From: Desulfurobacteriaceae bacterium
GTDB taxonomy: Bacteria; Aquificota; Aquificia; Desulfurobacteriales; Desulfurobacteriaceae
Length of the DNA stretch: 61,829 bases
Reading direction: 5' to 3'
Assembly (NCBI GenBank): GCA_027068415.1
Contig: JAMOTD010000017.1
Span: 67,074 to 128,902, forward strand
Of this stretch, positions 14,253-42,688 are shown in pieces. The position numbers and the translations under genes were made by a program. Each line of letters begins with the position of its first letter. Within the stretch, counting starts at the first letter, position 1. Under the pieces are notes generated by a model. The model made no database searches. It worked only from the letters and a program-made list of their open reading frames with translations, and had not been told where the DNA came from.

Positions 14253-14361
14253 CTCTGTCTCCGGTGAAGTTTTGTTTCTCAATTATAGTTGCTCTGGCGT
14301 CAGAAATTTTGAGGGAGCTCCGTTAATAACAGGTGGACAGATTTTGAGAGGAGGAAAGAAG

Positions 14362-15255
14362 ATGCTTCCTTTTATTTTCCTCGGTCTTGCGGCTGGTGCT
14401 TCCTTAGTAGGTTGTGGAGCTGCCATGGACGGAGTTGAGAAGTCAAGAGAGGCCGAGAGGGTTGTTGAGAGGGCCAAGAGGAGGCTCAAAAAGGCAGAAA
14501 AAGAGCTTGAGAAAGAAAGGAGAGGGCTTCAGAGGAGCCTTGAGCGTTTTGCCCGAGAAAGGGCTGAGCTTGCAAAGCTTTACGTAGAAATTCTCTCTCT
14601 CTTGGGACTGAAGGAAGGAAGTGCGGTTATGAGGTTTTTGATTCCGGAGGTTCCTGGGGGAGTAAGCCTGAAAGAGCCGACTTCAGAGATTGCTGAGGCC
14701 TTTTTTAAGGGAAGTCTCAAGGCAGTTGCAGCGGGTCTGAGCAGTTATGCTTCTACTCTGGGGCTTGCCTTTGCCTTTGGAACCGCTTCAACGGGAACCC
14801 CTATAGCCTGCCTTGCGGGAGTTGCCGCTGAAAATGCTGCCCTTGCGTGGCTTGGTGGGGGAGCTCTCAGCGCAGGTGGCGGAGGAATGGCCTTAGGGAG
14901 TGCTGTTCTTGGAGGGGCTACTGTGGGTCCGGCCGTACTTATCTTTGGTATTAGCTTAGCAAAGGAGGGAGAGAAGAGGCTTACGCAAGCCCACGAGTTT
15001 GAGAAGAAGGTTCTAAAGGAGGTGGAAAAGCTTACAAAGTTCGGCTACAAACTGAAGGAGAAGGCTCTTAAGGTAGAAGGAGCTGCTGAGACCTGCAGGA
15101 TTATGGCCAAGAAGTTAAGGGACTCTAAAAAGGAGCTTGAGGAGCTCCTTGCCAGTGGTGGCTCTGTCTCAAGAGTAAAGCTTGAGCTTTTGAAACTTAA
15201 GCTCTTTCCGAGGCTCTATAACTCAAGGAAGCTGTTGAAAGCAGAAATTCTTTAA
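14362..15255 (+). CDS. Unknown membrane protein with coiled coil and glycine-rich core
   Basis: A 297-residue protein. The ATG at 14362 follows GAGAGGAGGAAAG. Residues 1-20 are hydrophobic (MLPFIFLGLAAGASLVGCG) with a lipobox-like LVGC but no basic n-region, so it may be an anchor rather than a lipoprotein signal. Residues 28-70 form a charged coiled coil. Around residues 130-195 lies a Gly/Ala-rich stretch (GTASTGTPIACLAGVAAENA, GGGALSAGGGGMALGSAVLG) long enough for two or three membrane passes. A second coiled coil follows. I have seen this Gly-rich block in uncharacterised bacterial proteins; no function is established. It is coupled to the 101-residue gene 13 bases downstream. Confidence 0.72.
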   Translation: MLPFIFLGLAAGASLVGCGAAMDGVEKSREAERVVERAKRRLKKAEKELEKERRGLQRSLERFARERAELAKLYVEILSLLGLKEGSAVMRFLIPEVPGGVSLKEPTSEIAEAFFKGSLKAVAAGLSSYASTLGLAFAFGTASTGTPIACLAGVAAENAALAWLGGGALSAGGGGMALGSAVLGGATVGPAVLIFGISLAKEGEKRLTQAHEFEKKVLKEVEKLTKFGYKLKEKALKVEGAAETCRIMAKKLRDSKKELEELLASGGSVSRVKLELLKLKLFPRLYNSRKLLKAEIL

Positions 15256-24970: not shown

Positions 24971-24972
24971 TT

Positions 24973-26420: not shown

Positions 26421-26478
26421 CGGCTAAAATTCCCCTTAAAACGTTGTTCTACGAAATTCTACACCCGGGAGAGGAAAA

Positions 26479-27285
26479 TTGAAGTTTATCTCTGCTAAAG
26501 ATAGGGGAGACGTGGTAATTTTCGGAGCTCCCTACGACTCTACAACCTGCTTTCGCCCCGGAGCCCGCTTCGGCCCCGACGGAATAAGGCTTTTCTCCGA
26601 AAACCTTGAGGAATACAGCCCCGAGCTTGATAAGAGCCTTGAGGACTTGGAGTTTACCGACGCGGGGAACTTGGAGCTCCCCGCTCAGCCCGAAAGGATG
26701 GTTGAGGAGATTTACTCTTTTGTAAAAGGGGTAAAAGTACCGGTAATGCTCGGCGGTGAGCACTCGGTAACCTACCCGGTTGTTAAGGCTTTGAGTGAAA
26801 GGTTTACCGAGCTAACGGTTATCCAGTTTGACGCCCACGCAGACTTGAGAGAGGAGTACTCGGGAACTCCCTACTCCCACGCCTGCGTTATGAGGAGGGT
26901 TTTGGAAATCCCCAACACCCGCTTAATTCAGGTCGGAATAAGGAGCGGGACAGAAGAAGAGTTTGAGCTGATGAGGGAGAGCGACAGGATAACTTTCGTA
27001 AGAGAGGTTTCGGAGCTCGCCGAGCTCCTTTCCGGCGTTAAAACTCCCCTCTACTTTACGGTTGACATAGACTTCTTTGACCCCTCTTTTGCTCCGGGGA
27101 CGGGGACTCCCGAGCACTGCGGGGCTTCACCTGTTGACTTCTTTAAAGCTATCTATAAATTACCCGCCGCAGAAGTCGTGGGGTTTGACGTTGTGGAGGT
27201 AAGCCCCCCTTACGACCCGAGCGGGATTACTCAGGCGTTGGCTGCAAAGCTCGTAAGGGAGTTTTTACTAAAGTTCTGGGGGTAG
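26479..27285 (+). CDS. speB: Agmatinase / agmatine-ureohydrolase family enzyme
   Basis: A 268-residue ureohydrolase of the arginase superfamily. Manganese ligands are in GGEHSVTYP (His), QFDAHADLR (Asp-His-Asp) and FTVDIDFFDPSFAPGTGTPE (two Asp). The family includes agmatinase (agmatine to putrescine) and, in thermophiles, aminopropylagmatine ureohydrolase, which gives spermidine directly. The following speE and bpsA show a polyamine role. The sequence alone does not choose between the two substrates. TTG start after GGGAGAGG. Confidence 0.88.
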   Translation: MKFISAKDRGDVVIFGAPYDSTTCFRPGARFGPDGIRLFSENLEEYSPELDKSLEDLEFTDAGNLELPAQPERMVEEIYSFVKGVKVPVMLGGEHSVTYPVVKALSERFTELTVIQFDAHADLREEYSGTPYSHACVMRRVLEIPNTRLIQVGIRSGTEEEFELMRESDRITFVREVSELAELLSGVKTPLYFTVDIDFFDPSFAPGTGTPEHCGASPVDFFKAIYKLPAAEVVGFDVVEVSPPYDPSGITQALAAKLVREFLLKFWG

Positions 27286-27288
27286 AGA

Positions 27289-28167
27289 ATGCTCTGGTTT
27301 ACCGAGTACTACGGCGGCGAGGGAATGGAGCTCAGCGCCACCGGGCTTACCGTTAAGGCCAAAAGTGCCCGCTATAAAAAGACCCCCTTTCAGGAGCTCC
27401 TCCTACTTGAAAGTGAAGACTGGGGGAAAGTTTTAGTCCTTGACGGGGCGATTCAGACCACAGAGAGGGACGAGTTTATCTACCACGAGATGATTGTTCA
27501 CCCGGCCTTTTTTACCTTTACCCGCCCGATTGAGAGGGTTTTGGTAATAGGGGGCGGAGACGGGGGAACGGTTAGGGAGGTTCTCAAGCACCGGCCCGAA
27601 GAAGTTGTTATGGTTGAGATAGATAGGGAAGTGGTTGAAACCGCCATTAAGGAGCTCCCCTCAATTTCAAAAGGCTTAAAAGACAAAAGGGTAAAACTCC
27701 TCTTTGAAGACGGAAGAGAGTTTGTTAGAGGAAAAGAGGCGGAGTTTGACGCGATAATAGTTGACTGCTCCGACCCTATCGGCCCCTCTAAAGTCCTCTA
27801 CCAGGAAGAGTTTTACAGGGACTGCTTTAAAGCTTTAAAAGAAGACGGAATCTTTATTACTCAGTCGGAATCCCCCTTTGCCCAGAACAGGGTTCACAGG
27901 CAGGTGGTAAGGGAGCTCTCAAAAGTCTTCCCAATCGTCCGCCCTTACCTTGCCTTTATTCCGACCTACCCAAGCGGGATGTGGAGCTTTACGATTGCTT
28001 CAAAGAGACTTGACCCCCTCGGAGTTGCCCCTTCGGCTTTGGGGAAACTTTACAAAGAGTTTGTAGAGAAAGAGGGGGAGCTCCGCTACTACAACCCCGA
28101 AATCCACTACGGAGCTTTTGCAATACCAAACTTCGTTTACAGGGAGGAGCAAAATGGAAATACTTGA
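27289..28167 (+). CDS. speE: Spermidine synthase-family aminopropyltransferase
   Basis: A 292-residue aminopropyltransferase using decarboxylated AdoMet. Motifs are LVLDGAIQTTERDEF, YHEMIVHPA, VLVIGGGDGGTVREVLKH (AdoMet fold), VEIDREVV, DGREFV and the catalytic-side DCSDPIGPS. The end FVYREEQNGNT overlaps bpsA by 14 bases. The product may be spermidine or related thermophile polyamines, with MTA as by-product. It begins 3 bases after speB. Confidence 0.92.
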   Translation: MLWFTEYYGGEGMELSATGLTVKAKSARYKKTPFQELLLLESEDWGKVLVLDGAIQTTERDEFIYHEMIVHPAFFTFTRPIERVLVIGGGDGGTVREVLKHRPEEVVMVEIDREVVETAIKELPSISKGLKDKRVKLLFEDGREFVRGKEAEFDAIIVDCSDPIGPSKVLYQEEFYRDCFKALKEDGIFITQSESPFAQNRVHRQVVRELSKVFPIVRPYLAFIPTYPSGMWSFTIASKRLDPLGVAPSALGKLYKEFVEKEGELRYYNPEIHYGAFAIPNFVYREEQNGNT

Positions 28168-29209
28168 GAGGATTGCACAGGAGGCCGAAAAGAACACTCA
28201 GGTTCCGGCCTACAGCAGGAGCGTTGAGAAGGTTCTTGCTGCGGTAATGTCAACTCCGAACTTCTGGAAAATTGTTGACCTTTCCGACGAGCCCCTTCCC
28301 TTGGTTGCCGAAATCCTCAAACTCCTCAACAAGCACGACCTCGTTGTATTTGAGGGCGAGCAGATTCTTTTGACCGAGGCGGGAGCAGAGCTCGTTAAGA
28401 GGTTGGGAATAGAGCCCTTCGTCTCCCACAGGTGCCCCACCTGTAAGGGAAGGGGAGTAATTATTGACGAGAGCCTAAAGCCCGCCTTTGAGAAATTCCT
28501 CAAAATCCAGGAGAACAGGCCCCCTGCAATTCACCAGTACGACCAGGGCTACGTTACTCCTGAGAACACCTTTGCAAGGGTAGCCCTTGCAGACGATAGG
28601 GGAGACTTAAGGGGCAAAAAGGTCTGCGTTCTCGGGGACGACGACCTTATGAGCATTGCCCTTGCTTTAACGGGACTTCCCGCTAAGGTAACCATCTTAG
28701 AAATTGACGAGAGGCTCGTAAACTTCATTAAAGAGGTTTCGGACGAGTACGGCCTCAATATTGACGCAAGGGTTCACGACCTTCGCCAGCCCCTTCCCGA
28801 GGACGTTGTCGGGGCTTACGACACTTTCTTTACAGACCCGCCCGAAACCGTTGAGGCAATTAAGGCCTTCGTAGGCAGGGGAGTTGCAACCCTTAAAGGC
28901 CCCAGGTGTGCCGGCTACTTCGGAGTAACGAGGAGAGAGTCTTCCCTTGACAAGTGGAGGAGAATTCAGGTGGAGCTCCTCAACATGGGGCTCGTGATAA
29001 CCGACCTCCTTCACAACTTTAACGAGTACGTCAACTGGGACTACTACCAGGAGATGAGGGGCTGGCAGCTTACCCCCGTTAAGGTTCCTCCTAAGGACAT
29101 CTGGTACAAGTCAACCCAGTTCAGGGTTGAAACGGTTAGAGGATTTAAGGGCTTCAACGAGCCGATAGTCGGCGACATCTACAACGACGCCGAGAGCTCC
29201 ACAACTTAG
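28154..29209 (+). CDS. bpsA: Branched-chain polyamine synthase (N4-bis(aminopropyl)spermidine synthase)
   Basis: A 351-residue protein of the BpsA family, known from Thermococcus and other thermophiles. The start is ATG 28154 with GGGAGG 7 bases upstream, inside the end of speE. The N-terminal winged-helix region is followed by a zinc-like HRCPTCKGRG, then the AdoMet-fold VCVLGDDDLMSIALAL with the GDDD motif, TILEIDERLV, and the catalytic FTDPPET. BpsA adds two aminopropyl groups to the central nitrogen of spermidine, giving a branched polyamine that protects nucleic acids at high temperature. Strong sign of a thermophile. Confidence 0.93.
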   Translation: MEILERIAQEAEKNTQVPAYSRSVEKVLAAVMSTPNFWKIVDLSDEPLPLVAEILKLLNKHDLVVFEGEQILLTEAGAELVKRLGIEPFVSHRCPTCKGRGVIIDESLKPAFEKFLKIQENRPPAIHQYDQGYVTPENTFARVALADDRGDLRGKKVCVLGDDDLMSIALALTGLPAKVTILEIDERLVNFIKEVSDEYGLNIDARVHDLRQPLPEDVVGAYDTFFTDPPETVEAIKAFVGRGVATLKGPRCAGYFGVTRRESSLDKWRRIQVELLNMGLVITDLLHNFNEYVNWDYYQEMRGWQLTPVKVPPKDIWYKSTQFRVETVRGFKGFNEPIVGDIYNDAESSTT

Positions 29210-30876: not shown

Positions 30877-30892
30877 AGGTGGAATTATACCC

Positions 30893-31287
30893 CTCTAAAT
30901 CCCGCTCAAATTTTCGGGCATTTCAACCATTTTTCTGAAATTGAATTACACCCGTTGAGCAAACAGTCGCAATCCCGCTCATTTTTTCGGGCCTTTCAAC
31001 GTAGTTTACATCATCAATCTTTAAAACTAAATAAATGTCGCAATCCCGCTCATTTTTTCGGGCCTTTCAACGAAGATGGCTGAAGTAAGAATCAAAAAAG
31101 TCTCAAGTCGCAATCCCGCTCATTTTTTCGGGCCTTTCAACAGGAGACGGGTGGACTTTAAGCTTGGACTGCACAAGTCGCAATCCCGCTCATTTTTTCG
31201 GGCCTTTCAACAAAAACTCTAAAGGAGGTGTGAAATGATGAACGAGAAAATTGTCGCAATCCCGCTCATTTTTTCGGGCCTTTCAAC
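30893..31287 (-). CRISPR. CRISPR array, five intact repeats plus one degenerate
   Basis: The 35-base repeat on the plus strand starts GTCGCAATCCCGCTC and ends TTTTTTCGGGCCTTTCAAC. Intact copies start at 30966, 31037, 31107, 31177 and 31253; spacers are 36, 35, 35 and 41 bases. A degenerate copy ends at 30927, with a 38-base spacer after it. Because the decayed repeat marks the trailer, the array should be read on the minus strand from a leader above 31287; the repeat then starts GTTGAAAGGCCCG and leaves the 8-base 5' handle ATTGCGAC on the crRNA. CCCG...CGGG can form a small stem. It lies 181 bases from the Lon-SAVED gene. Confidence 0.95.
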
Positions 31288-31468: not shown

Positions 31469-32860
31469 CTAAGGGCTGTCTACTTTCTCTAATTTCGGGA
31501 GCTCCAAAACCGGTAAGTAGTCTCTCTTCTCCTTAAAATACTGCCACACCTTTATTGGCCAGTAGTTATCCACCGCCATACCGAGGGCAAAGGCAATCGC
31601 AACCGGAACGCTCATTAAGAGGTTTATCTCTTCGTATTCTGAGGAGTTGTAGACTCTGTTCATCACCTCGTAGGCTTCGGCAACGGTCTCCTCCCACTCT
31701 GAAGGCTCTTTGGGGAGAGCTCCTTTGTTTTTGTGCTCGGCGTAGAAAAAGTCGGCATCAAGCTCCTCTGCCAGAGCTCTTGCCCTCTTTTCGGTTTCGT
31801 GTGAGGCTATTTGAAGCGCTACTACGGCTTTCTTTTTCCCTTTTAACTCCGATTTCATAGTGAACCTTGAGAGTGTGCGGATTCTTCTCTTTATCTTCCT
31901 TGGGGAGTCTATAAGGTCTATTAGCTTATAGTAGTTCTGGTTCTCAAAGTGATATATAGCTAAAGGAATCTTTCCCGCTCCTAAGGTTGCTCCTATTGCA
32001 AATGCCAGGGCCGATGGAGCTCTGATTCCCAAGTGGATTTTGGCCTTTATGGGAGAGTAGGTCAACTCTCTTACTTCTCTCAAGCTCTCTACTACTCTTT
32101 TAACGAACTCTTCCCATCTACCGGCAGGGAGCTTCGGAGGTAAAACTACGCTTAACCTTTCTCCGTCTAATCCTTTAACGGTTTTAACTCCCGCTGTCTC
32201 TTGTAGAAGTTTAAATGTTGCTTTTACCTCCTCGTAAGGTATAGTTGCTATTAAGAAGGGTAGCTCAATCTCTTTTTGGCTGAGGAGAGTGTGGAGCTCC
32301 TTTACATTCCCCTTCCAGATTAGGAACTTTCTGAGCTTTCTTGCAAGCTTCCTCTTCTCTTTAACTCTGTCGGCGATGAAGTCTCCTGAGCTTTCAAGTT
32401 TTCCGCTTATTGCCACTTTCTCGGGAATTCCTCCGGCAAGTAGGGCGTAAGCCAGAGGAGCCTGGAATGAGCTCCCGCTAAAGTTTGTTTCTTCAAAGAA
32501 GACCGCCACTTCGCTGTTTAAAAACTCTTTAACCGGCTCAAGGGAGGCGTCTTTTTTGTTTTTTACCTCTTTGGAGCTCTTAAAGGCTATTGCCTTCACC
32601 ATTTTATTTTTAGAGCCCACTACGGGGAACTCAAACTCAACGGGCTCTGATAGGAGCTCTGCACCGATAACTTTTTCTAAAAACTCCCTATCCCTCTCAA
32701 GAGCTCCCTTCACAATCCAGTAGAGGATTTCGGGGTTTCCCGAGTTTGCGGCATAAAGGAGCTCTTCCCTTTTAAGCTCAACTTTATCCTCTACCCAATC
32801 CTTTAAAGCTGCAAGTGCCGCTGTAATTTTTCCCTCTTCTATAAGGCTCTTTAGAACCAT
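31469..32860 (-). CDS. Lon-SAVED cyclic-oligoadenylate-activated protease (CalpL-like)
   Basis: A 463-residue protein. Residues about 85-185 look like a Lon protease domain: NFSGSSFQAPLAYALLAGG places a nucleophile Ser at 131 (Lon PSAG position), and FIADRVKEKRKLA places the dyad Lys at about 167. Residues 270-463 are a SAVED domain: HLGIRAPSALAFAIGATLG, LAIYHFENQNYYKLIDL, VVALQIASHETEKRARAL and MSVPVAIAFALGMAVDNYWP. This is the architecture of CalpL from Sulfurihydrogenibium, which binds cyclic tetra-adenylate made by Cas10 and then cuts CalpT. Its start overlaps the stop of the CalpT-like gene by one base. The dyad assignment is by alignment to Lon in my head. Confidence 0.83.
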   Translation of the reverse strand: MVLKSLIEEGKITAALAALKDWVEDKVELKREELLYAANSGNPEILYWIVKGALERDREFLEKVIGAELLSEPVEFEFPVVGSKNKMVKAIAFKSSKEVKNKKDASLEPVKEFLNSEVAVFFEETNFSGSSFQAPLAYALLAGGIPEKVAISGKLESSGDFIADRVKEKRKLARKLRKFLIWKGNVKELHTLLSQKEIELPFLIATIPYEEVKATFKLLQETAGVKTVKGLDGERLSVVLPPKLPAGRWEEFVKRVVESLREVRELTYSPIKAKIHLGIRAPSALAFAIGATLGAGKIPLAIYHFENQNYYKLIDLIDSPRKIKRRIRTLSRFTMKSELKGKKKAVVALQIASHETEKRARALAEELDADFFYAEHKNKGALPKEPSEWEETVAEAYEVMNRVYNSSEYEEINLLMSVPVAIAFALGMAVDNYWPIKVWQYFKEKRDYLPVLELPKLEKVDSP

Positions 32861-33681
32861 TACTCCTTTACCTCAACTTTTAGTCTTGAGAGAGCTCCGA
32901 AAGCTTTTTTGCTGATTCCCCTTACAGTTAAAACTTTGGGAAGGACTCCCCAGAAAATAGGAACTTCTCCCTCTGGGGTTTCTATTTTTACCTCACCCTC
33001 TTTTCCCCTTAAGTTCTCGTCAATTACAATCTCTACGGTTTCCGGAGTGAAGACTGCAACTGCTCCTTTTCCTTCTATTACTCTTCTATCGGAAGCAGCG
33101 GCAACTTCAAGGGCTGCAGTTTCTTCAAGGAGGCTCCTGATAAATTTCGGGATTTTAACCTCTTGGGCAATACTCTTTGAGCTTTTCTCGGCTTCGTCAA
33201 TTGACGATAGGAGCTCTTCAACTAAAAACTTGTAGCGTTTGTACTCAAAGTCTTTGAATTTTTCGTGGATTACATCATCATATCCCCTTCCTCTTTTCTC
33301 TTTAGGCAAGGGAGCTTCTCCCTTTAATGTTTTCTTTAAAATTCTTAAATCTTCATCTTTTAGCTTTCCTATGAGCTCTGCTTCCTTTAAAAGCTTTTTA
33401 GGGGTGCTTGCGGCAAGGTCTGTCTGGACTATCCAGATATCGGAAAATGGATGAGGGAGCTCAACGATAAGGTCGTGTCTGGTGGCTAAAGGCCAGCAGA
33501 AGGAAAGAGGAGCCACTTCAACGAAGCTTCCCTCTTTATTGATTACTGCAACAAAAAGGGGCTCGTCGGCCGGCAGCCTGTAAACGCCCCCTTCAATAAC
33601 TTCCCCGCAAGAGGCGGTAGGAGTTTTCTCGTACATCTCAACCATTTTTATGTAATCCTCCAGGATATCCTCAAGCCTCAT
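32860..33681 (-). CDS. CalpT-like cleavable anti-sigma protein
   Basis: A 273-residue protein. ATG 33681 is chosen for the CAGGAGGAAAA site before it; the frame is open 14 codons further but inside the sigma gene. The N-terminal half has a beta-rich MazF-like feel (GEVIEGGVYRLPADEPLFVA, VEVAPLSFCWPLATRHDLIV). The middle is a charged linker (KGEAPLPKEKRGRGYDDV), and the C-terminal half has another alpha/beta domain (IEGKGAVAVFTPETVEIVID). In the characterised system CalpT holds the sigma factor until CalpL cleaves it. Identity rests on size, fold feel and gene order between the sigma and protease genes. Confidence 0.72.
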   Translation of the reverse strand: MRLEDILEDYIKMVEMYEKTPTASCGEVIEGGVYRLPADEPLFVAVINKEGSFVEVAPLSFCWPLATRHDLIVELPHPFSDIWIVQTDLAASTPKKLLKEAELIGKLKDEDLRILKKTLKGEAPLPKEKRGRGYDDVIHEKFKDFEYKRYKFLVEELLSSIDEAEKSSKSIAQEVKIPKFIRSLLEETAALEVAAASDRRVIEGKGAVAVFTPETVEIVIDENLRGKEGEVKIETPEGEVPIFWGVLPKVLTVRGISKKAFGALSRLKVEVKE

Positions 33682-33701
33682 TTTTCCTCCTGACAACTTC
33701 T

Positions 33702-34316
33702 TTAACGGAATCTCTTCTGACATTCTGACAGTAGAAGCTGACCGAAGATTCCGGCCTCTTCCCCGTCAAAGTCAAACTCCTTTAAGAGCTTTTCTACCTT
33801 CGGCCGAAGTCTGCTCCACGCTTTATCCCTTGCATTTCTTGATTTATCCTTTAAGTACAGGTTCTCTTCCTTTTTGTATAGGGCCGAGTGGACTCTGTAG
33901 CAGAGGATTTCAAACTCTTTCTCCGTTAGCTCTTTCTTTAGGAGCTCCACTGCTTCCCGGGCGTTTAAGAGGGCAATTACATTGAATGGGCTCGCTTCTA
34001 AGCGCTCTTCAAGCGGTTTTTCTTCCTCTTCCCGTTTCTCGGAAATACTGACCGTTTCAAAGCTCTTTCTCCTAAGATACCTGTCTATAAGTCTGTTCCT
34101 TACGGATATAATGAGGAATGAGAGGTTAAGCTCTTTGCGGCTGCAGAACTCCTTTCGCTTTTCAAAGAGAATTAGGGCTATCTCCGAGACCAAATCATCA
34201 AACTCCAGTTTGGTGCTGAACTCCTTTTGAATTATTCCGGCAATCTTTCGGGAGAGCTCTTCAATCTCCTCTCCCTTCCCTTTACAGAGTTTCTCCTTAA
34301 TCCTCTCCGCACTCAT
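33702..34316 (-). CDS. ECF-like sigma factor (CalpS-like)
   Basis: A 204-residue sigma factor. Region 2 is visible as KLEFDDLVSEIALILFEKRK and LSFLIISVRNRLIDRYLRR (the -10-binding and melting helix). Region 4 is near ELTEKEFEILCYRVHSALYK and KSRNARDKAWSRLRPKVEKL, where the helix-turn-helix should lie. ATG 34316 is preferred to the TTG directly before it. It overlaps the upstream unknown gene by 20 bases and is followed by the CalpT-like gene. Freed CalpS is thought to redirect RNA polymerase to stress or defence genes; its target promoters are unknown. Confidence 0.8.
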   Translation of the reverse strand: MSAERIKEKLCKGKGEEIEELSRKIAGIIQKEFSTKLEFDDLVSEIALILFEKRKEFCSRKELNLSFLIISVRNRLIDRYLRRKSFETVSISEKREEEEKPLEERLEASPFNVIALLNAREAVELLKKELTEKEFEILCYRVHSALYKKEENLYLKDKSRNARDKAWSRLRPKVEKLLKEFDFDGEEAGIFGQLLLSECQKRFR

Positions 34317-34722
34317 CAAGCAACCTCTTCTTTATTTCTTCTTTACACGTTCCGCAGGGTAGGCTTGCAAGCCTATCTTTCAGAAACCTCACTGGTATTG
34401 TAAATAGGCAATTACCGCTGTTTAAGTCAACGAAAACAAAGGAGGTTATTTTCTTAACCTCTTTATAACGTCCGACCGTACACTCTCTTCCTATCTCTAC
34501 CTTAGGCTGTCTCGGGAAGAGCTTTTTGGTTGATAAGAAAACAACTTTAGCTACCTCAAGCTTTTCACCTTCAGCTTCCAAAAACTCAAGTACTATTCCC
34601 GGTCGGCGCTCTTTTTTTAAGTCGGCTTTGATTTCTTTTGAGAGCTCCCTTGCCCTTAGAAAGTACCACAGGCAGGGAGTTTTTCTCTCTTTTAGACAAA
34701 GGGCTTCAACAAGTTGCTCCAA
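34297..34722 (-). CDS. Unknown 141-residue protein heading the Calp operon
   Basis: The first gene of the minus-strand operon, starting TTG with GGAGGGGAAAA upstream. It begins MEQLVEALCLKERKTPCLWY, has a beta-rich middle (GIVLEFLEAEGEKLEVAKVV, then CTVGRYKEVKKITSFVFVDL) and ends with a short Cys motif PCGTCKEEIKKRLLDEC. The six cysteines could bind a metal. I recognise no family. The 20-base overlap with the sigma gene implies translational coupling and a shared role. Confidence 0.75.
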   Translation of the reverse strand: MEQLVEALCLKERKTPCLWYFLRARELSKEIKADLKKERRPGIVLEFLEAEGEKLEVAKVVFLSTKKLFPRQPKVEIGRECTVGRYKEVKKITSFVFVDLNSGNCLFTIPVRFLKDRLASLPCGTCKEEIKKRLLDECGED

Positions 34723-34743
34723 TTTTCCCCTCCGGCGTCAGCC

Positions 34744-34772
34744 TTTACAGCTTTTCTCCGTTTTAGTATAAA
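34744..34772 (+). promoter_or_regulatory. Promoter of the csm operon (plus strand)
   Basis: TTTACA (34744-34749) and TATAAA (34767-34772) are spaced exactly 17 bases, close to the sigma-70 consensus. The csm1 ATG is 34 bases downstream of the -10 box. Confidence 0.65.
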
Positions 34773-34794
34773 GGAAGGTAAAACAGAAGTAAAA
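34765..34794 (-). promoter_or_regulatory. Promoter of the Calp operon (minus strand)
   Basis: Read on the minus strand, TTTTAC (34789-34794) and TATACT (34765-34770) are spaced 18 bases. It would start transcription about 10-12 bases before the TTG of the 141-residue gene region, leaving a leader of about 35 bases. The -10 box overlaps that of the csm promoter. Confidence 0.55.
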
Positions 34795-34806
34795 GGCGGA
34801 GGGAGA

Positions 34807-37383
34807 ATGGAAAGAGAGAAACTCCACCTGGCTACCCTTACAGCCCTCTTTCACGATATAGGTAAGTTCTACCAGAGGACTCAGGATAACCCCAGGAAAA
34901 GAAAGCACTACCAGTTTTCTGCCGACTTTTTAAAGGAAAAAAGGGAAAAGATAAAGAGGCTGTTTAACTTAACCGACGAAGAGTTTGAGGCCCTAAAGAA
35001 GGCGGTAGAGAGACACCATGGAAGGTTAACTCCCTCTGAGCCTCTACCTTTTATAGTTCAATCTGCCGACTGGCTTAGCTCGGGTCTTGACAGGGTTTCA
35101 ATAGACGAAGAGGCCTTTGTTGAAGGAAAAAACCCGGAAGACGACAAAGGGATTTACAAGCTCTTAGTCTCTCCCTTTGCCCTGATTAAGATAAAGCAGA
35201 AGGATAAGGCCTACCACCCCTGCATCACCCACCTTAAAGAGGAGAGAACTTGGGGATACAAGTTTAAGGAGCTCACCTCCGAAAATCTCTTTCCCGTAAA
35301 GGAGGGGGAGTACCCAATTGAGGAGAGGAAAAGAGACTACAAGGAGCTCTGGAAGAAGTTTTTAAGAGAGTTTGATGAGCTCCCTGAAAGCGGAGACTTT
35401 AACTTTAGGTTTGAGACCCTCAGAGCTCTCTTTCTCAAGTACATGTGGTGCGTTCCATCCTACACCTACGCAAAGAAGAGAATTGCGCTACCCGACGTCT
35501 CCCTTGCCCACCACCTTTTAACTTCTGCTGCAATTGCAACTGCTCTGTGGAAGTACGAAGAAAGTAAAGGTTTTGACCCTAAAAGCCTAAAGAGTAAGGA
35601 TGTGGAGAAGTTTATCTTTCTCAGCGTTGACTTTTCGGGAATTCAGAGCTTCATCTTCAGCCCTCCGAAGGATACAAAAAAGTGGGCGGCGAAAATTCTC
35701 AGGGCCCGCTCTTTCATTGTCTCCTTGGCACTGGAAACGGTTGTAAACAGGCTTTTGGAGGCGTTTGGAGTAAACGCCTCAAGTCTCTTAATGAACGCCG
35801 GAGGAAAGGCTTGGCTTCTTCTTCCAAACCTGTCTGATGCTGAGGATAGGATAGAAGAGGTTAGAAAAGAGGTCGTTGAGGCTCTTTTAAGCAGCGAAAA
35901 GAACTTCTTTGGGGAGGTGAAGTTAAAGATTGCCTACTTGGAGCTCCCTCCCAGACGGCTCCACCTGAAAAACTTTGGAAAGATAGTTGAGGAGCTTACC
36001 CAGAAGGAGGCCGAGGCTAAGTTTAGGCTCTTTAAGCCTGAGGACTTTTCCAAATTGATAATAAGTGGCTACTGTGGAAGGGTTTCTGAGGGGGACGAGA
36101 GCAAAAAGCTCTGCCCGGTTTGCGGAAAGGCTCCGGCAAGTGAGGAGCTCTACGGTGAAAAGGTCTGCTCCCTCTGTAAGTACCTGATTGAACTAGGGGA
36201 GAAACTGCCAAAGAGCGACTACGCAAAGGTTTCATTTAAAAGTTCCTCCTACTTTCCCCTTCCGGAGGTGGAGCTTTTTAAGTGTGATTTAGAAGAAAAG
36301 CTGAAGGAGCTAAAGGAGGGCGAAAAGATTTACTCCTTTACGACAAAAACTTCCCGTCCTCTACCCCTTAAACCCCTTGAAAACGCCGTTCCTATTTACG
36401 ACAAGGAAAAGGAGAGGGACGAGCTTAAGGAGCTGGTAGAAAAGTGCTACGAAGGGGAAAAGGCGCAGGAGTTCGTCGGGAAGCCCAAAAACTTCTGCCA
36501 CATAGGCCTCTATGCTCTCAAAAAGTCTGAAGGCTCCTTTTGTGGAAGACCCTTTCTTGGGGTTTTGAAAGCCGACGTTGACAACTTGGGGTACATCTTC
36601 GCCAAGGGCTTTGTAAGGGCACCTGAAAGCGACGGAGACGAGGAGTGTAGGGGCTCAATCCACTCTCTCTCAAGGCTTCTGCAACTTAGCTGGTTCTTAG
36701 ACTTTTTCTTCTCCGAGGTTGTAAGGGAGAAGATTGTGAAAGAGAAGTTTGAGAACATTTACAGCGTTTTTTCCGGGGGCGACGACCTCTTTTTCATAGG
36801 GCCCTGGGAGGATGTTCTTAAATTTGAGGGAGCTCTGAGAGAGGAGTTTAAAGAGTTCACCTGCAGGAACGATAGCTTCACCCTTTCTGTAGGAATAGCC
36901 GTCGTTAAGCCCAACCTTCCAATCTACGCCTTTGCAGAAGAAGCCGAGGAGGCCCTTGAGCGCTCAAAGAGGGAAGGGAAAAACTCCACCACACTCTTTG
37001 ACAGGAGAGTTGACTACAGGGAATTCACCCTTAAAGAGCTCCTAGAGGTTGCCGACGAAATAGTTAAGCGTGCCGGAGACTGTGCAGACGCAAGGAAGAT
37101 TTCCAACTCCTTCCTCTACAAGCTTTTAACACTGTCAGAAATGGCGAATAACGAAGGTAAGAGCGTTAAAAATCTTCTATGGAGGGCCTACCTCAGGTAC
37201 TTAACCTCAAGAAACTTTAAGAAAGAGGATGCTGAGGAGTTCTTTAAGGAGTTTGAGAAGTGGATTAGGAAGTACTCAGAGAACATTTCAGAGGAAGAAA
37301 AGAAGGGTAAAGACAACCTCTTTTACATACCACTTGCAATAGCAATTTACAGGAGGAGGAGATATGAGAGCTCAGCACAGTAA
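34807..37383 (+). CDS. csm1: Type III-A CRISPR Cas10/Csm1
   Basis: An 858-residue Cas10. ATG 34807 follows GGAGGGAGA; the longer open frame upstream is not used. The N-terminal HD nuclease motif is LFHDIGKF (His16, Asp17) with a later ERHHGRL. A zinc finger starts at Cys436 (LCPVCGKAP ... VCSLCKYL). The palm domain has the intact catalytic GGDD at residues 657-660 (FSGGDDLFF), so it should make cyclic oligoadenylates when target RNA is bound. Both DNase and cyclase sites look intact. It leads the csm1-5 operon. Confidence 0.95.
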   Translation: MEREKLHLATLTALFHDIGKFYQRTQDNPRKRKHYQFSADFLKEKREKIKRLFNLTDEEFEALKKAVERHHGRLTPSEPLPFIVQSADWLSSGLDRVSIDEEAFVEGKNPEDDKGIYKLLVSPFALIKIKQKDKAYHPCITHLKEERTWGYKFKELTSENLFPVKEGEYPIEERKRDYKELWKKFLREFDELPESGDFNFRFETLRALFLKYMWCVPSYTYAKKRIALPDVSLAHHLLTSAAIATALWKYEESKGFDPKSLKSKDVEKFIFLSVDFSGIQSFIFSPPKDTKKWAAKILRARSFIVSLALETVVNRLLEAFGVNASSLLMNAGGKAWLLLPNLSDAEDRIEEVRKEVVEALLSSEKNFFGEVKLKIAYLELPPRRLHLKNFGKIVEELTQKEAEAKFRLFKPEDFSKLIISGYCGRVSEGDESKKLCPVCGKAPASEELYGEKVCSLCKYLIELGEKLPKSDYAKVSFKSSSYFPLPEVELFKCDLEEKLKELKEGEKIYSFTTKTSRPLPLKPLENAVPIYDKEKERDELKELVEKCYEGEKAQEFVGKPKNFCHIGLYALKKSEGSFCGRPFLGVLKADVDNLGYIFAKGFVRAPESDGDEECRGSIHSLSRLLQLSWFLDFFFSEVVREKIVKEKFENIYSVFSGGDDLFFIGPWEDVLKFEGALREEFKEFTCRNDSFTLSVGIAVVKPNLPIYAFAEEAEEALERSKREGKNSTTLFDRRVDYREFTLKELLEVADEIVKRAGDCADARKISNSFLYKLLTLSEMANNEGKSVKNLLWRAYLRYLTSRNFKKEDAEEFFKEFEKWIRKYSENISEEEKKGKDNLFYIPLAIAIYRRRRYESSAQ

Positions 37384-37876
37384 CCCTTTAACGGTTAAAC
37401 CGGCAGAGATTGTTGAAAAGTTCTTTTCGGGGAAGCGGGAGGAGCTCCTGAAAGTTCTGGTTGGCGTTGACGGAGAGAGCCTCCTTGAGAAGTTTGCAAA
37501 GAGTTTAGGAGGGAAAAGGGAGAGAGAGAAGCTCTCTTTTACTAAAGTTAGAAAGTACTACGAGCAGTTCCTAAACATCTATGAGGAGGCCCTTGGCAGA
37601 GTTCTTGAGGGTAAAGCCTTAAAACAGGATTCGCTTCCTGAGGAAATTCTTGTGAAACTCTATCTCCTTAAGAGCCACGTGGTTTACGACCAGGCAAGGG
37701 AAGGAGGGAAAGTTAGAGAGGATAAGTTTAAGAACCCAAAAGCACAAAAGTTTGAGAACTTTAAGGAGTTTGTTAACTCACTAATTTTAAAAATCAACAC
37801 TTACGACGAGCTTGAAAAGGCAAAGCGCCTTTTTGAAGCCTTCGTAGGCTACGCTAAGCTCTACCTTGGAAGCTAA
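37364..37876 (+). CDS. csm2: Type III-A CRISPR small subunit Csm2
   Basis: A 170-residue all-helical protein. The C-terminal stretch LLKSHVVYDQAREGGKVRED and RLFEAFVGYAKLYLGS is typical of Csm2, the small subunit that lines the crRNA-target duplex along the Csm3 backbone. The N-terminal 60 residues are longer and less conserved. It overlaps csm1 by 20 bases and has AGGAGGAG before its ATG. Confidence 0.9.
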   Translation: MRAQHSNPLTVKPAEIVEKFFSGKREELLKVLVGVDGESLLEKFAKSLGGKREREKLSFTKVRKYYEQFLNIYEEALGRVLEGKALKQDSLPEEILVKLYLLKSHVVYDQAREGGKVREDKFKNPKAQKFENFKEFVNSLILKINTYDELEKAKRLFEAFVGYAKLYLGS

Positions 37877-37893
37877 AAAGGAAGGAGGAGAAA

Positions 37894-38661
37894 ATGAAGA
37901 GACTGAAGAAGATTGTGGAGATAACTGGAACTTTAGAGCTCTTAACAGGCCTTCACGTTGGAGCCGGAAAAGACGAGGTAAAGATTGGAGGGGTTGATAG
38001 CCCGGTTATTAAAAACCCCCTTACCGGAGAACCCTACATTCCCGGCTCAAGCCTTAAGGGAAAGATGAGAATGCTCCTTGAGCTTGCGACAGGCTCCTAC
38101 CAGTTTGACGGCAAAGATGCCGGCGACGTTCTAACCTATTCCTACTACAAAGCACACAAGAACGATAAGGAGAGACTCCCAGACCCAGAGGCGGCGAAGA
38201 ACATCTTAAAGCTTTTTGGAACTTCCGGCTCAGACTATAAAGAAATAGACGAAGAAGCAAAGGAGCTTGCAATTACCAGGCTCTCCTTTTACGACTTGTT
38301 TCTGACCAAGGAAAGTAGGGAGAAGTACAACGAAATTCTTGAAAAGCGCCTTGAAGAAAAGACGGAGGTGAAGATAAACAGGATTACGGGAACCGCTTAC
38401 GGAGGAGCTCTCAACACCAAAGAGAGGATCCCTGCCGGTATGGAGTTTGGATTCAGGCTGATTTTAAAAATCTTTGATTGCGATGATGAAAAAGCTCTCC
38501 TTGAGATGGTAAAGAGGGGCTTAAAGCTCCTGGAGTTTGACTCCTTAGGGGGAAGCGGTTCAAGGGGCTACGGAAAAGTAAAAGTAAGAGAACTCTCTTT
38601 CAGAGAGATTAACCCTTTAGAACTTGGAAAGGAGAAGAGCGGTGAGGAAGTTTCAGGCTAA
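37894..38661 (+). CDS. csm3: Type III-A CRISPR backbone RAMP Csm3
   Basis: A 255-residue RAMP protein. The catalytic Asp that cuts target RNA every six bases is Asp35 in KIGGVDSPVIKNPLTGEPYI. The glycine-rich loops are YIPGSSLKGKMR and LGGSGSRGYGKVKV near the end. Several copies form the filament that holds the crRNA. Preceded by AAGGAGGAG. It ends 20 bases inside the start of csm4. Confidence 0.95.
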   Translation: MKRLKKIVEITGTLELLTGLHVGAGKDEVKIGGVDSPVIKNPLTGEPYIPGSSLKGKMRMLLELATGSYQFDGKDAGDVLTYSYYKAHKNDKERLPDPEAAKNILKLFGTSGSDYKEIDEEAKELAITRLSFYDLFLTKESREKYNEILEKRLEEKTEVKINRITGTAYGGALNTKERIPAGMEFGFRLILKIFDCDDEKALLEMVKRGLKLLEFDSLGGSGSRGYGKVKVRELSFREINPLELGKEKSGEEVSG

Positions 38662-39553
38662 GCTCAGAATAATTACGCCCCTTGCAACTACCTTTCAGTC
38701 AGACACGCTCTTTGGGGAGTTCTGTTGGCACTTTAGCTTCCTTTACGGTTCTGACAGGCTGAAGGAGCTCCTGAGTAAGGGGGCGTTTGTGGTCTTTTCA
38801 GACATATTTCCCGAAGGCCGGCTCCCTATGCCCAAGTTCCCCGTAAAGGGAGGGTTTGATTCAATAGAGAGTTATAAGAAGTTTAAGGAGCTGAAGAAGA
38901 AAAGGTTTGTAGGAGTGGAGACCTTTAAAGAGGCTCTTGAGAAGAGTTCTACTTTTGAAGAATTCTGTAAGGAACTCTACTCTTTAGCAGAGCAGGAAAA
39001 GGATGAGAGCTTTTTCAAGCAGAGCTCCAGAGTTAGAGTAGCGATAAACCGCCTTACCGGAACGGCCTACGAGGGGAAGCTCTTTCAGGTTGAGGAACTC
39101 TTTCCGAAAGTAAAGTTTTTCACCCTCTACGGCCTCTTTGAGCCGGAGCTAATAAGTGCCGACGAAGTTAAAGCCACCCTTGAGTTTTTAGGTTTAAGCG
39201 GTTTTGGGGCCAAAAAGAGCTCCGGAGCAGGCAAATTTGAGATAGTTGAGTTTAAGGAGGAATGGGAGCTCCCGGAAAGAGGAGAGAACTGGTTTGTCTC
39301 TCTCTCAACGGGCCTTCCCGAAGGTGGAGAGGTTGAAGAGTTCTACGCCGACTTCTTTACAAAGTTCCCGAAACACGGAAGGGAAGTCGCCCGGCCGGAA
39401 ATCTTTAAGGAGCCTTTGATTCTCTCAAGGTCCGGCTCAACCTTTAAGGCAAGAGAGAAGAAGGAGTTCTACGGCTCCTTGGTTGAGATATCTGCGCCGG
39501 CCCTTAAAGGCCACAAACACTCAAGAGTCGTAGTTCCTCTATTTGTGGGGTAG
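38642..39553 (+). CDS. csm4: Type III-A CRISPR RAMP Csm4
   Basis: A 303-residue Csm4, which caps the 5' handle end of the crRNA and contacts Cas10. The GTG at 38642 is chosen: AAGGAG lies 7 bases upstream. It starts VRKFQAKLRIITPLATTF, has FGEFCWHFSFLYG, a RAMP loop with VAINRLTGTAYEGKLFQ, and the G-loop LSGFGAKKSSGAGKFEIV. It ends with HKHSRVVVPLFVG. csm5 follows 4 bases later. Confidence 0.92.
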   Translation: MRKFQAKLRIITPLATTFQSDTLFGEFCWHFSFLYGSDRLKELLSKGAFVVFSDIFPEGRLPMPKFPVKGGFDSIESYKKFKELKKKRFVGVETFKEALEKSSTFEEFCKELYSLAEQEKDESFFKQSSRVRVAINRLTGTAYEGKLFQVEELFPKVKFFTLYGLFEPELISADEVKATLEFLGLSGFGAKKSSGAGKFEIVEFKEEWELPERGENWFVSLSTGLPEGGEVEEFYADFFTKFPKHGREVARPEIFKEPLILSRSGSTFKAREKKEFYGSLVEISAPALKGHKHSRVVVPLFVG

Positions 39554-39557
39554 GGAG

Positions 39558-40766
39558 ATGAGAAGTGAACCCGTTTCAATTAAAGTTCGCCTGAAAGTTA
39601 AAACGCCAACGGCAATTGGCACCGGAGAGAGCTATACTCTCTTCAGCTACGCTGTAAAGGAGAGAGAGCTTTTAGTAATCAACTTTAAAAAGCTGATAGA
39701 GAAGTTAAAGTCCACAGGGAGGTTGGGCGAGTTTAAGGAGCTCCTTAAAAGGTTTACGCCCTTTGACGTCGTCAAACTTCAAAACTTCTACTCTCGGGTA
39801 GTAGGTCGGGACGAGGCAATAGCAGTTTTAAAGCTTGAGCCAGAAGTTGCAGAGTACTTTAAGGGGAAGTTTGCGAGGTTAGCCGAGCTTTTAAGGGGAA
39901 GGAACTTCAAAGAGTATTTTGAGGAGCTTGGGGCCGCTGAAGTAAGAGAGGCTTTTAAGAATCCGCTAACCGGGAAAGCTTACATTCCCGGTTCAAGCCT
40001 TAAGGGGGCCATAAGAACCTCGCTACTCAACTACTTGATTAAGAAGGGCAAGATAGACAAGGAAAAATTTATAGGGGAACTCCAAAGGGCTTTTAATCAG
40101 GTTGGCCTTCACTGGCCGGGAGTTTACTCCAGGGAAGAGCTCCCAACAAACTTCGGAGAGCTTGAGAAAGCGCTGAAGAGGATTTTTAACGAGATAGATT
40201 CCCACCTCCTCTGTGATTTCCTGACGGCAGTTGATTCCTCTGACTTCGGAAGGGACTTAATGAGGTTTGTAAAAGTTTCCGATTTCTCTCCGACAGGGGA
40301 AGTTTCCACTTCAGTCGGAAGGCTCAGAAGAGTAAGCAGAAAGGGTAAGGAAAATGCCTTTGGTTTTGTTGAGTTCGTTGAACCGGGAGCTCTCTTTGAG
40401 GGAACCATTACTTTCTACCCTGAATTTATTGAGAAGTACGCAGAGTGTCCCTTAAAGGTTAACCCCCAGCTGGTGGTTAAGGCCCTTAGAAGTGAGTACT
40501 CAAAGGTTCTCCGTTGGGAAAGGGATTTTCTGGGGAAATCTCCTCTGCCCTTTACTAAAGAGGAGGTAAAGCTCTACCAGAGGGAGAACTCTCCGCTTGC
40601 CCCGATTAAACTCGGTTTTGGAGCCGGAGCTCTCTCTAAAACCTTCTCAGACGCTCCCGAGCTTAGGGTAATAGGAAACAGGCACACGGGAATCAGGCCG
40701 GAACCTACCGAAATTTCGGTAATGAGAGGCAGGCCGATGGGCTGGTGTCTTCTGGAGGTCTGCTGA
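39558..40766 (+). CDS. csm5: Type III-A CRISPR RAMP Csm5
   Basis: A 402-residue Csm5, which caps the 3' end of the crRNA and helps its trimming. ATG 39558 follows GGTAGGGAG; the open frame begins 5 codons earlier without a site. It has an N-terminal KTPTAIGTGES loop, the RAMP block NPLTGKAYIPGSSLKGAIRT near residues 135-154 and a helical middle. The C-terminus reads IRPEPTEISVMRGRPMGW. Its TGA overlaps the ATG of the PLD-HerA gene by one base (TGATG). Confidence 0.92.
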   Translation: MRSEPVSIKVRLKVKTPTAIGTGESYTLFSYAVKERELLVINFKKLIEKLKSTGRLGEFKELLKRFTPFDVVKLQNFYSRVVGRDEAIAVLKLEPEVAEYFKGKFARLAELLRGRNFKEYFEELGAAEVREAFKNPLTGKAYIPGSSLKGAIRTSLLNYLIKKGKIDKEKFIGELQRAFNQVGLHWPGVYSREELPTNFGELEKALKRIFNEIDSHLLCDFLTAVDSSDFGRDLMRFVKVSDFSPTGEVSTSVGRLRRVSRKGKENAFGFVEFVEPGALFEGTITFYPEFIEKYAECPLKVNPQLVVKALRSEYSKVLRWERDFLGKSPLPFTKEEVKLYQRENSPLAPIKLGFGAGALSKTFSDAPELRVIGNRHTGIRPEPTEISVMRGRPMGWCLLEVC

Positions 40767-42688
40767 TGGAGATTTTAACCAGCGACCAAATTTACGGTAA
40801 GATAGAGGAGCTCGTAAAAAGGGCTGAAGTTTCTATCTGGCTCTCTTCAGCTTGGCTTAAAAGTAGCGTTCTTGAGAGGCTTTTTGCTCAGGTTCCGGAA
40901 AATACTAAAGACTTAAAAGTTGTTTTAAGGGCTTCAGAGCTTCAGGATTTGCTCATTACCGACGAGAAGGTTTTTGAGATTTTAAGAAAGTGGGAAATCT
41001 ACCTCCATCCCCGCCTTCACGCGAAGTTTATCCTTGTAGACGGCAGGTACGCCGTTGTCGGCTCTGCCAACTTTACCTATTCGGGGCTTTCAGAGTTCTC
41101 AAAGGGGAACGTTGAGGCGGCCGTTTACTACGATGAAACCGATGACCCGGAAGAGGTTGAGAAGCTTAAAAACTATTTCATAGATATAGTAGAGAGTAAA
41201 GAGACTTTCAGGGTTGACGGCTCTCTGGTCGGCTTTGCAATGAATCCGGTAAAGTCCCGCTCCTTTGAGTTTGTTGCCCTTGAGGAGGTTAAAGAGCAGG
41301 ATTATGTAGAAATCAGAGACGGTGATAGAAAACTAATAGGGAGAGTTCTGGAGCTCTACTCCTACGATATGGACTTTTTTGCAAATCCCTTCACCGCCGG
41401 GGAGTCTCCCGTTTTCGGCTCTTTGGATACTTTTAAGCTCCTCTTTGCTAAAGGTGAGAATTCCGACTGGAAAAAGGCTGCTGTTTGGGCCTACCTTAAC
41501 GACAACGGAGCTAAACTTAAGCTTGCGGTTGCAAGTGTTGTAGGTGAATTAAAAGAGGATAAACTTGAGACCTCTCTCTCTCCCGTTTCGGTGGGCTCGC
41601 CCGTTTTTAAACTTTCTGAGGATGATATTTCTTCCCTTTTGAGGAAAAACTTCTCGGGCGCAGATATGGTTAGACCGGTGAAAGTTGGGAAGTTGGTGGG
41701 GAGCTCCGCCGAGGCCTTTATTGATGCCTCGGAGGTTCTTTCTAAACACCTGTTGGTTTTAGGAACCACCGGCTCGGGTAAGAGCTACTTTACGAAACTC
41801 TTCCTCAAGAGGCTGTTGGAGGCCGACCCTGAGGTGAAAGTTTTTATCCTTGACCCCCACGGTGAGTACAGGGAAGGGCTTGGTTCTTCCGCTATTGAGG
41901 AGCTCACCGTTGAAGACCTGCTTCTGCCGGTTTTTCCAGAAGAGGTTGAGGAGCTAATAAAGCAGGAGGGAGGGTCCTCCCTGATTTCCGGGAACTCAAA
42001 GGAGGCTTCTAAGAACAGGTCTTTAATCTCAAAGGCCGTTAGGCCTTCCCTCGGCCTTACCGCTTTTAGGGAGAAGAGCTTAAGGGAATTGATAAGGGAG
42101 TTTTCAGATAGAAACAACGAGAAGGAGGCTCTCCTCTCTTCCCTTTCTGATGTATATGACGGTCAGCCGAACCTTGTCAGAGCTCTTGAGAGAGCTCTCA
42201 ACTCGGCGAGCAGAGTTGTGATTTTTAACTTTAAAAGGGTTAGTGAGCCCTCTACGAGGGTTAACGTTGCCGGCCTTGTGATGAGGGAGCTCTTTGAGAG
42301 GGCCAAGAGGGGAGATATCGGAAAGACCTTCCTCGTTCTTGAGGAGGCCCACAGCTTTGCCCCCGAAAGGGGATTCGGAGATACCTCTGCCGGAAGGGAT
42401 AACTTGGCCTTGACTATGGCCAGGAAAATAGCCTCCGAGGGGAGGAAGTTTAACTTGGGGCTCGGCGTTATAACGCAGAGGCCGGCTCAGGTAAGTAAGT
42501 ACGTTCTCTCCCAGACCAACACTCAAGTAATGTTCCGAACAATTAACTCTTCGGACCTTGACGTTATCTCCTCTTTTGTTGAGTATGCAGGTGAGGACGT
42601 TGTCTCCCTTCTTCCGTCCCTTCAAACAGGAATGGGAGTTGTCTGCGGAATAGGAACTCCCTTCCCCCTGCTAATTAACGTTGAGTAA
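40766..42688 (+). CDS. PLD nuclease-HerA ATPase fusion, coupled to csm5
   Basis: A 640-residue fusion. Residues 1-145 are a phospholipase D-type nuclease domain with one HKD motif: HPRLHAKFILVDGRYAVVGS gives His85, Lys87, Asp92, Ser100 and Asn102. Residues about 160-300 form a HAS-barrel-like domain. The rest is a HerA/FtsK-type motor: Walker A GTTGSGKS at 333-340, ILDPHGEY, Walker B FLVLEEAHSF at 522-531, a sensor-like ITQRPAQVSKYVLSQTNTQV and an arginine-rich stretch. HerA motors pump DNA in repair (with NurA) or defence. No NurA is here; the PLD domain would be the built-in nuclease. One-base overlap with csm5 suggests co-translation. Not a standard Csm component. Confidence 0.88.
   Translation: MEILTSDQIYGKIEELVKRAEVSIWLSSAWLKSSVLERLFAQVPENTKDLKVVLRASELQDLLITDEKVFEILRKWEIYLHPRLHAKFILVDGRYAVVGSANFTYSGLSEFSKGNVEAAVYYDETDDPEEVEKLKNYFIDIVESKETFRVDGSLVGFAMNPVKSRSFEFVALEEVKEQDYVEIRDGDRKLIGRVLELYSYDMDFFANPFTAGESPVFGSLDTFKLLFAKGENSDWKKAAVWAYLNDNGAKLKLAVASVVGELKEDKLETSLSPVSVGSPVFKLSEDDISSLLRKNFSGADMVRPVKVGKLVGSSAEAFIDASEVLSKHLLVLGTTGSGKSYFTKLFLKRLLEADPEVKVFILDPHGEYREGLGSSAIEELTVEDLLLPVFPEEVEELIKQEGGSSLISGNSKEASKNRSLISKAVRPSLGLTAFREKSLRELIREFSDRNNEKEALLSSLSDVYDGQPNLVRALERALNSASRVVIFNFKRVSEPSTRVNVAGLVMRELFERAKRGDIGKTFLVLEEAHSFAPERGFGDTSAGRDNLALTMARKIASEGRKFNLGLGVITQRPAQVSKYVLSQTNTQVMFRTINSSDLDVISSFVEYAGEDVVSLLPSLQTGMGVVCGIGTPFPLLINVE

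Follow-up and report, generated by a model that had tools for sequence, protein, structure and literature searches.

The 61,829-nt window analyzed here, taken from a Desulfurobacteriaceae genome (contig JAMOTD010000017.1, positions 67,074 to 128,902), very probably carries a genuine Calp module, i.e., the protease CalpL, the anti-sigma factor CalpT, and the sigma factor CalpS, linked to a Csm complex of type III-A, with CalpS likely driving a feed-forward regulon of clustered regularly interspaced short palindromic repeat (CRISPR) genes. Two elements are new here and emerge from sequence comparison: a fourth protein, P141, as the apparent constant partner of CalpS, and a predicted CalpS promoter with its predicted targets. 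The source genome (G000) belongs to the Aquificota, and the comparison set comprised 136 Aquificota genomes; G, L, and C numbers below designate genomes, loci, and contigs. As already proposed in the initial annotation and confirmed by the open reading frame (ORF) coordinates, the genes for P141, CalpS, CalpT, and CalpL follow one another on the minus strand (31469 to 34722), with overlapping ends, and csm1 to csm5 diverge from them on the plus strand (34807 to 40766).

The Calp proteins and their divergent type III-A operon

The calpL gene (31469..32860, minus strand) encodes a 463-residue protein with a Lon-like protease and a C-terminal SAVED domain, the putative sensor and ring nuclease for cyclic tetra-adenylate (cA4). 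The SAVED domain, anticipated in the initial annotation, is recognized by Pfam (2e-17), and the protein matches the CalpL structure 7qda over residues 104 to 450 (5e-25) as well as the PADLOC CRISPR-Lon model (1.5e-72). Because the CalpL of one compared locus (L062, genome G100) is identical to PDB entry 7QDA, that locus, from Sulfurihydrogenibium sp. YO3AOP1, served as our ruler. The Ser152/Lys193 dyad of 7qda corresponds to S131 and K169 of the window protein and is invariant in the aligned CalpL proteins (54/54); the serine is the one first annotated, whereas the lysine had been placed near position 167. Within the SAVED domain, R361 aligns with R321 (54/54), H345 with H304 (52/54), H392 with H354 (50/54), and K364 with K324 (50/54), and R338 and H474 of YO3AOP1 are not conserved, being G296 and Q440 in the window CalpL. 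As judged by mutation, cA4 cleavage in YO3AOP1 depends most on R361, K364, and H392 and less on H345 (PMC11417357).

Since relatives of the window CalpL were found in 61 of the 136 genomes, Calp is not rare in Aquificota, and the window module is a further member of a known family, which counted 17 CalpL proteins among 1,113 type III loci in an earlier survey (PMC11229360). Its description as a natural second example also comes late with respect to CcaCalpL, whose structure is already solved (PDB 9EYI/9EYJ/9EYK). The latter is likewise a Lon-SAVED protease with ring nuclease activity, but it is longer (549 residues) and is matched only weakly by the window CalpL (3.5e-8); no relative came up when the genome-contig collection was scanned with the CcaCalpL sequence.

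CalpT, the predicted anti-sigma factor (32860..33681, minus strand), is listed as an ORF reaching 33723 (287 residues), and its start is likely Met15 at 33681 (273 residues) rather than 33723. The protein consists of a MazF-like N-terminal domain without the MazF catalytic arginine, a long helix, and a CalpT10 domain. In an AlphaFold2 model (predicted local distance difference test [pLDDT], 87), Foldseek matched the N-terminal domain to MazF toxins (MazF-mt1, E = 3e-4) and the C-terminal domain to CalpT10 (8b0u_C, E = 5.5e-4, TM 0.77), so that the structure prediction suggested as a check in the initial annotation bore out its CalpT assignment. Profile comparison of CalpT with MazF detected no relation by sequence, although the folds match. 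Given that the CalpT10 chain of 8B0U begins at Ser196 of YO3AOP1 CalpT, cleavage in that protein falls between A195 and S196. The aligned P1 residue is alanine in 38 of 48 CalpT proteins and P1′ is alanine, glycine, or serine in 43 of 48; the window CalpT is predicted to be cut in the Ala-rich AAA of LEVAAASD, at about residues 207 to 211 (EVAA/ASD). At one other locus (L043, 6737-8659), CalpT and CalpL are fused in a single 640-residue ORF.

CalpS (33702..34319, minus strand; 204 or 205 residues, starting at ATG 34316 or TTG 34319) is a putative, divergent sigma factor of the extracytoplasmic function (ECF) type. It scores 24.3 bits against Sigma70_r2, for a Pfam cut-off of 24.0, and is the sole one of 42 family members to pass, while its match to TIGR02937 (1.7e-7) lies below the cut-off of that model. 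A syntenic calpS was found in 45 loci, with strong evidence of orthology. CalpS is thus very divergent and the weakest link of the module by profile, and it is orthologous by position and sequence.

On the other side of the intergenic region, csm1 (cas10; 34807..37383, plus strand) matches TIGR02578 at 1e-176 and retains both the HD motif (FHDIGK) and GGDD in its ORF, and csm2, csm3, csm4, and csm5 (37364..40766, plus strand) are supported by Csm2_III-A (8e-11) and RAMP matches in Pfam. The initial reading of csm1 to csm5 with intact motifs therefore holds, and a Cas10 of the cyclase-competent type adjoins Calp.

Compared with the YO3AOP1 system (7QDA, 8B0R, and 8B0U; PMC11417357), the window module shares the Lon-SAVED architecture, the Ser/Lys dyad, the cA4-pocket residues, the MazF-like CalpT with its CalpT10 domain, a cut site formed by alanine and a small residue, a CalpS of putative ECF type, and a P141-family gene 5′ of calpS. 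It differs in that the two CalpL proteins are only ~26% identical and that the reference Calp is followed by a Cmr operon, whereas the window Calp is divergent from a type III-A operon. Protein identities, active sites, cut site, and gene order can all be read from the sequence, as can the motif statistics given below. The presence of the dyad, R321/H354, the MazF-like CalpT with CalpT10, and the cut site agrees with the signal path of Sulfurihydrogenibium first proposed for this locus; the claim that it operates in another lineage stands for the family but not for the phylum, which is the same. The specificity for cA4, the proteolysis, and the release of the sigma factor are established for Sulfurihydrogenibium alone and, by analogy, would apply to this locus as well.

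P141, a constant neighbor of CalpS

The fourth gene (34297..34722, minus strand) encodes P141, a 141-residue protein with MazF-like features and four conserved cysteines. Each of the 45 loci in which calpS is complete, the reference YO3AOP1 included, has a member of this family directly 5′ of calpS, and at all of them the gene overlaps or closely adjoins calpS. The YO3AOP1 homologue matches the PADLOC family C3a162 (PDLC01080, “unknown function”) at 2e-60, while the window P141 is too diverged to come within reach of that model. The C3a162 entry makes no mention of a role with CalpS, of which the P141 family appears to be a constant partner. Conserved features of the family include an invariant Arg40-Pro41, an FLTT/FLST strand with a conserved Thr/Ser, and a cysteine pattern (C-x6-C ... 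CGxC) whose first pair, C-x6-C, is only partly retained in the window protein. A second scan of the collection for relatives returned only Aquificota, and at two loci (L043, 5159-6096; L045, 6403-7340) the P141 gene is duplicated in tandem.

P141 is probably a fourth core component of the module, acting together with CalpS or else binding or modulating it, and its role may be read in two ways. It might be a second CalpS-binding regulator (a co-anti-sigma factor, a chaperone, or a zinc or redox switch working through its cysteines) and not an enzyme, a reading to which we give slightly less than even chances. Its strict association with calpS and its conserved cysteine pairs are consistent with this role, as is the binding of CalpS by the MazF-fold CalpT in the published system, but the invariant Arg-Pro hints that an active or binding site has been kept. 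That same dipeptide, together with the conserved Thr/Ser, falls on the catalytic positions of MazF, an equivalence that rests on a weak alignment: hhalign pairs the RP and TT of P141 with those of Aquificota MazF at an E value of 0.0012 and a probability of only 19%. P141 could then be a catalytically active MazF-like ribonuclease, the toxin arm of the module, with CalpT a MazF relative turned anti-sigma factor after losing its arginine. The AlphaFold2 model of P141 (pLDDT, 84; predicted template modeling score, 0.81) has MazF (5wyg) as its best PDB match, and the strand and helix order is alike in the C-terminal halves of the P141 and CalpT models. This ribonuclease role nevertheless seems rather unlikely, as the fold match is weak (E = 0.32; probability, 0.66), neither Pfam (PF02452) nor NCBIfam MazF profiles match P141, profile comparison revealed no sequence relation between P141 and CalpT, and the four cysteines are foreign to MazF. 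A PDB search with the P141 profile also found nothing. Relative to MazF/PemK, then, CalpT shares the fold in its N-terminal domain without the arginine, while P141 keeps the RP and T/S positions but bears extra cysteines. Filing P141 as a MazF was rejected in view of the missing profile match and the weak fold match.

A predicted promoter for CalpS

Side-by-side reading of the 5′ regions drew attention to GTCAGA followed by CGTT, facing calpT and cas10; the predicted CalpS promoter is written GTCAGA-N16-NGTTWW. CGTT-type sites occur 37 times in 56 Calp loci at the N16 spacing and only 0 to 3 times at 17 other spacings, against an expected 0.35 in first-order Markov shuffles of these loci; 300 letter-permuted motifs gave a mean of 0.34 sites and a maximum of 4. 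The −10 variants GGTT, TGTT, and AGTT account for 42 further sites at N16. The motif was spotted by eye in the same loci first used for counting; the phylum scan is independent of them. Across the 136 genomes, GTCAGAWW-N14-CGTTWW yielded 137 sites compared to 21 for a backward-pattern control, with 104 in the 61 Calp-positive genomes and 33 in the 75 scored as Calp negative. An estimated share of roughly 1% of such a genome consists of CRISPR genes. Outside the discovery loci, 90 sites were read, of which 39 stand before defense genes, mostly cas genes (csm2, 9; cas6, 6; cas10, 5; cmr1, 4; calpT, 3; cas7, 3; cas2, 3; and others). When the discovery loci are included, all 69 defense-gene sites are separated from the start codon by 8 to 99 nt, with a median of 35, the downstream genes being calpT, cas10, cmr1, csm2, cas6, cas7, cas1/2, and a PDC-M09A-like gene. 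The calpS-calpT junction carries GTCAGA-N16-NGTTWW in 28 of 45 cases, compared to none in control segments. A −35/−10 element of fixed spacing before the anti-sigma gene and the target operons corresponds to the layout of an autoregulated ECF-type system, and GTCAGA-N16-[C/G]GTTWW is likely the promoter read by CalpS. The initial annotation had expected the locus to help identify target promoters and conserved sites of cleavage, and predictions of both could indeed be derived. Among the Calp papers covered, PMC11417357 included, none names a target gene or promoter.

Predicted regulon in the source genome

In the window, a strict site (GTCAGA-N16-CGTTAA; 33702..33729, minus strand) lies within the 3′ end of calpS, 20 nt before the calpT ATG at 33681, as a predicted promoter of calpT-calpL. 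The predicted promoter of csm1 to csm5 (GTCAGC-N16-CGTTTT; 34737..34764, plus strand) is 42 nt before the ATG at 34807, and the strict form is found at the equivalent place in three other loci (L032, L033, and L035). Elsewhere in the genome, on contig C18, a predicted GTCAGG site precedes by 31 nt the csm3 gene of a csm3-csm5-cas6-Can2-Cam1 cassette. A further strict site (GTCAGA-N16-CGTTAA; 14299..14326, plus strand) is located 35 nt upstream of a gene (14362..15255, plus strand) encoding a 297-residue coiled-coil, Gly/Ala-rich hydrophobic protein that matches models of the phage-defense candidate PDC-M09A in PADLOC (PDLC04407, 2e-25; a second at 1.3e-23) and additionally bears this predicted CalpS promoter. 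Homologues exist in only 6 of the 136 genomes, in six genera, of which three have the strict core GTCAGA-N16-CGTT (including the homologues of G002 and G073), with a variant in G108. As it lies away from the Calp locus and is not a cas gene, this gene is the most telling of the predicted regulon members. Sites on contigs C27, C9 (209231), C13, and C17 (53622) of the same genome were not counted as members; the C27 site lies 136 nt before a gene, and the same sequence is present in G134.

Sites were also seen in other settings. At L220 (G077:C143), four consecutive genes, two of them for lipoprotein-like products, each have the motif 29 to 36 nt upstream, and the regulon may have expanded in that lineage. 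A gene for a helicase/NTPase-like protein of ~995 residues has the motif 9 to 18 nt upstream in four genomes belonging to two genera (L195, L197, L198, and L265). G124 carries, at L083, a CalpT-CalpL pair without calpS or P141 and with the motif before calpT; since a complete Calp locus (L072) is also present in this genome, the pair may be cross-regulated.

Several observations weigh against CalpS as the reader of these sites. No Pfam match was obtained for sigma region 4 of CalpS, the csm1 and C18 csm3 sites carry one mismatch each, and 51 of the 90 sites outside Calp loci precede unrelated genes or none. In the source genome, the loose pattern GTCAG-N15-18-CGTTW gave 19 matches against 17 backward controls, so that only strict or well-placed matches were used for the predicted regulon. 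Strict GTCAGA-N16-CGTTWW sites, present in the window genome, are absent from YO3AOP1 and some other Calp clades, with no recognizable variant in Sulfurihydrogenibium-type loci, and the reference system may thus read another sequence. These sites might instead be read by another, housekeeping ECF sigma factor that activates CRISPR genes in stress, with CalpS acting elsewhere. The 33 sites in Calp-negative genomes would fit this alternative, as would their absence from YO3AOP1, the recognition of the element by CalpS being a prediction. We consider it improbable, however, in view of a per-genome site rate about 4 times higher with Calp, of the calpS-calpT junction as the commonest placement, and of the motif type, which follows the CalpS tree (7 changes versus 13.6 when shuffled). 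Moreover, at least one of the “negative” genomes, G061, holds a diverged P141-calpS-calpT-calpL operon directly before its cas10. At many loci the element upstream of calpT lies within the calpS reading frame and might have been a mere by-product of a conserved C-terminal peptide, (L/M)SE.C.K, without promoter function. This explanation was rejected as very improbable: in 27 of 28 calpS ends the serine codon is TCA and the codon before it ends in G, while TCA represents 25% of calpS serine codons, so that the DNA and not just the peptide is conserved (P ~1e-15, a nominal value that ignores the relatedness of the genomes), and the same element is found outside long ORFs before cas7, cas6, c15, cas2, and cas10.

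Other effectors, CRISPR loci, and neighboring genes

The initial annotation found no CARF nuclease, which is correct for the window but not for the genome. On C18, csm3, csm5, and cas6 are followed by a Can2/Card1-like gene (Card1_endonuc, 5e-15; PADLOC CARF-PDDEXK, 9e-36) and a Cam1-like TM-CARF gene (PADLOC TM+CARF, 1e-42), and a C-terminal fragment of a Csx1 HEPN protein ends contig C7 (118632-119039). The suggestion that Calp might be the only effector of cyclic oligoadenylate was rejected on these grounds; according to PMC12751052, CalpL seldom acts as the only effector, and this genome fits that pattern. The C18 cassette (24428-29114; L098) lacks csm1, csm2, and csm4 and may rely on subunits supplied by the window locus. 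A second cas10, with GGDD kept and no HD domain in its ORF, is located on C9 (140450-146150; L097, 4953-10655), accompanied by csm3/4/5-like RAMP genes and a 255-residue small subunit, inserted beside tricarboxylic acid cycle genes.

Directly 3′ of calpL, a CRISPR array (30881..31287) contains five full copies of the 35-nt repeat GTCGCAATCCCGCTCATTTTTTCGGGCCTTTCAAC (30966-31287), preceded by one degenerate copy (~30893-30927). The same repeat is present on contigs C8, C9, C11, C16, and C18, in the last case in the array adjoining the csm cassette. Downstream of csm5, which it overlaps, a gene (40745..42688, plus strand) for a protein with PLD-nuclease-like, HAS-barrel, and HerA ATPase domains (PLDc_2, 5e-10; DUF87, 3e-27) is probably cotranscribed with the csm operon; its matches to PADLOC HerA models include one labeled “Type III coevolved” (2e-26).

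Discussion

Activation of CalpL by cA4, cleavage of CalpT, and CalpS as the client are established in the studied systems (PMC11417357 and PMC12751052). By the same route, Csm1/Cas10 of the window locus would detect phage RNA and make cyclic oligoadenylate, the species being cA4 in the homologue that was studied. This molecule would bind the SAVED domain of CalpL and cause the protease to oligomerize. The Ser131/Lys169 protease would then cut the Ala-rich linker of CalpT before CalpT10, releasing CalpS, which would direct RNA polymerase to GTCAGA-N16-[C/G]GTTWW promoters. Targets here would be calpT-calpL, csm1 to csm5, the csm3-csm5-cas6-Can2-Cam1 cassette, and the PDC-M09A-like gene. Because promoters presumably read by CalpS stand before these genes, the predicted output is a feed-forward amplification of CRISPR interference and adaptation along with extra effectors, and resynthesis of CalpT, as anti-sigma factor, and of CalpL would act as the brake. 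Such a view agrees with the published one of a reversible transcriptional adjustment and not suicide (PMC11417357).

With P141 constantly beside calpS, in the reference organism as well, the reconstituted three-protein complex may miss a part. More broadly, we put forward tentatively, as a proposal that falls a little short of an even bet, that in type III signaling of Aquificota CalpS and an obligatory, hitherto overlooked MazF-like P141, with its catalytic-type arginine kept, run a dedicated regulon through which cA4 sets a cell-wide immune transcription state. If true, this regulon would span interference complexes, CRISPR RNA processing, spacer acquisition, CARF effectors (Can2 and Cam1), and a non-CRISPR defense gene. 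Known Calp biochemistry ends at sigma release, and a concrete predicted element makes the question of its targets directly testable; the predicted answer is that the CRISPR machinery would amplify itself and recruit other defenses.

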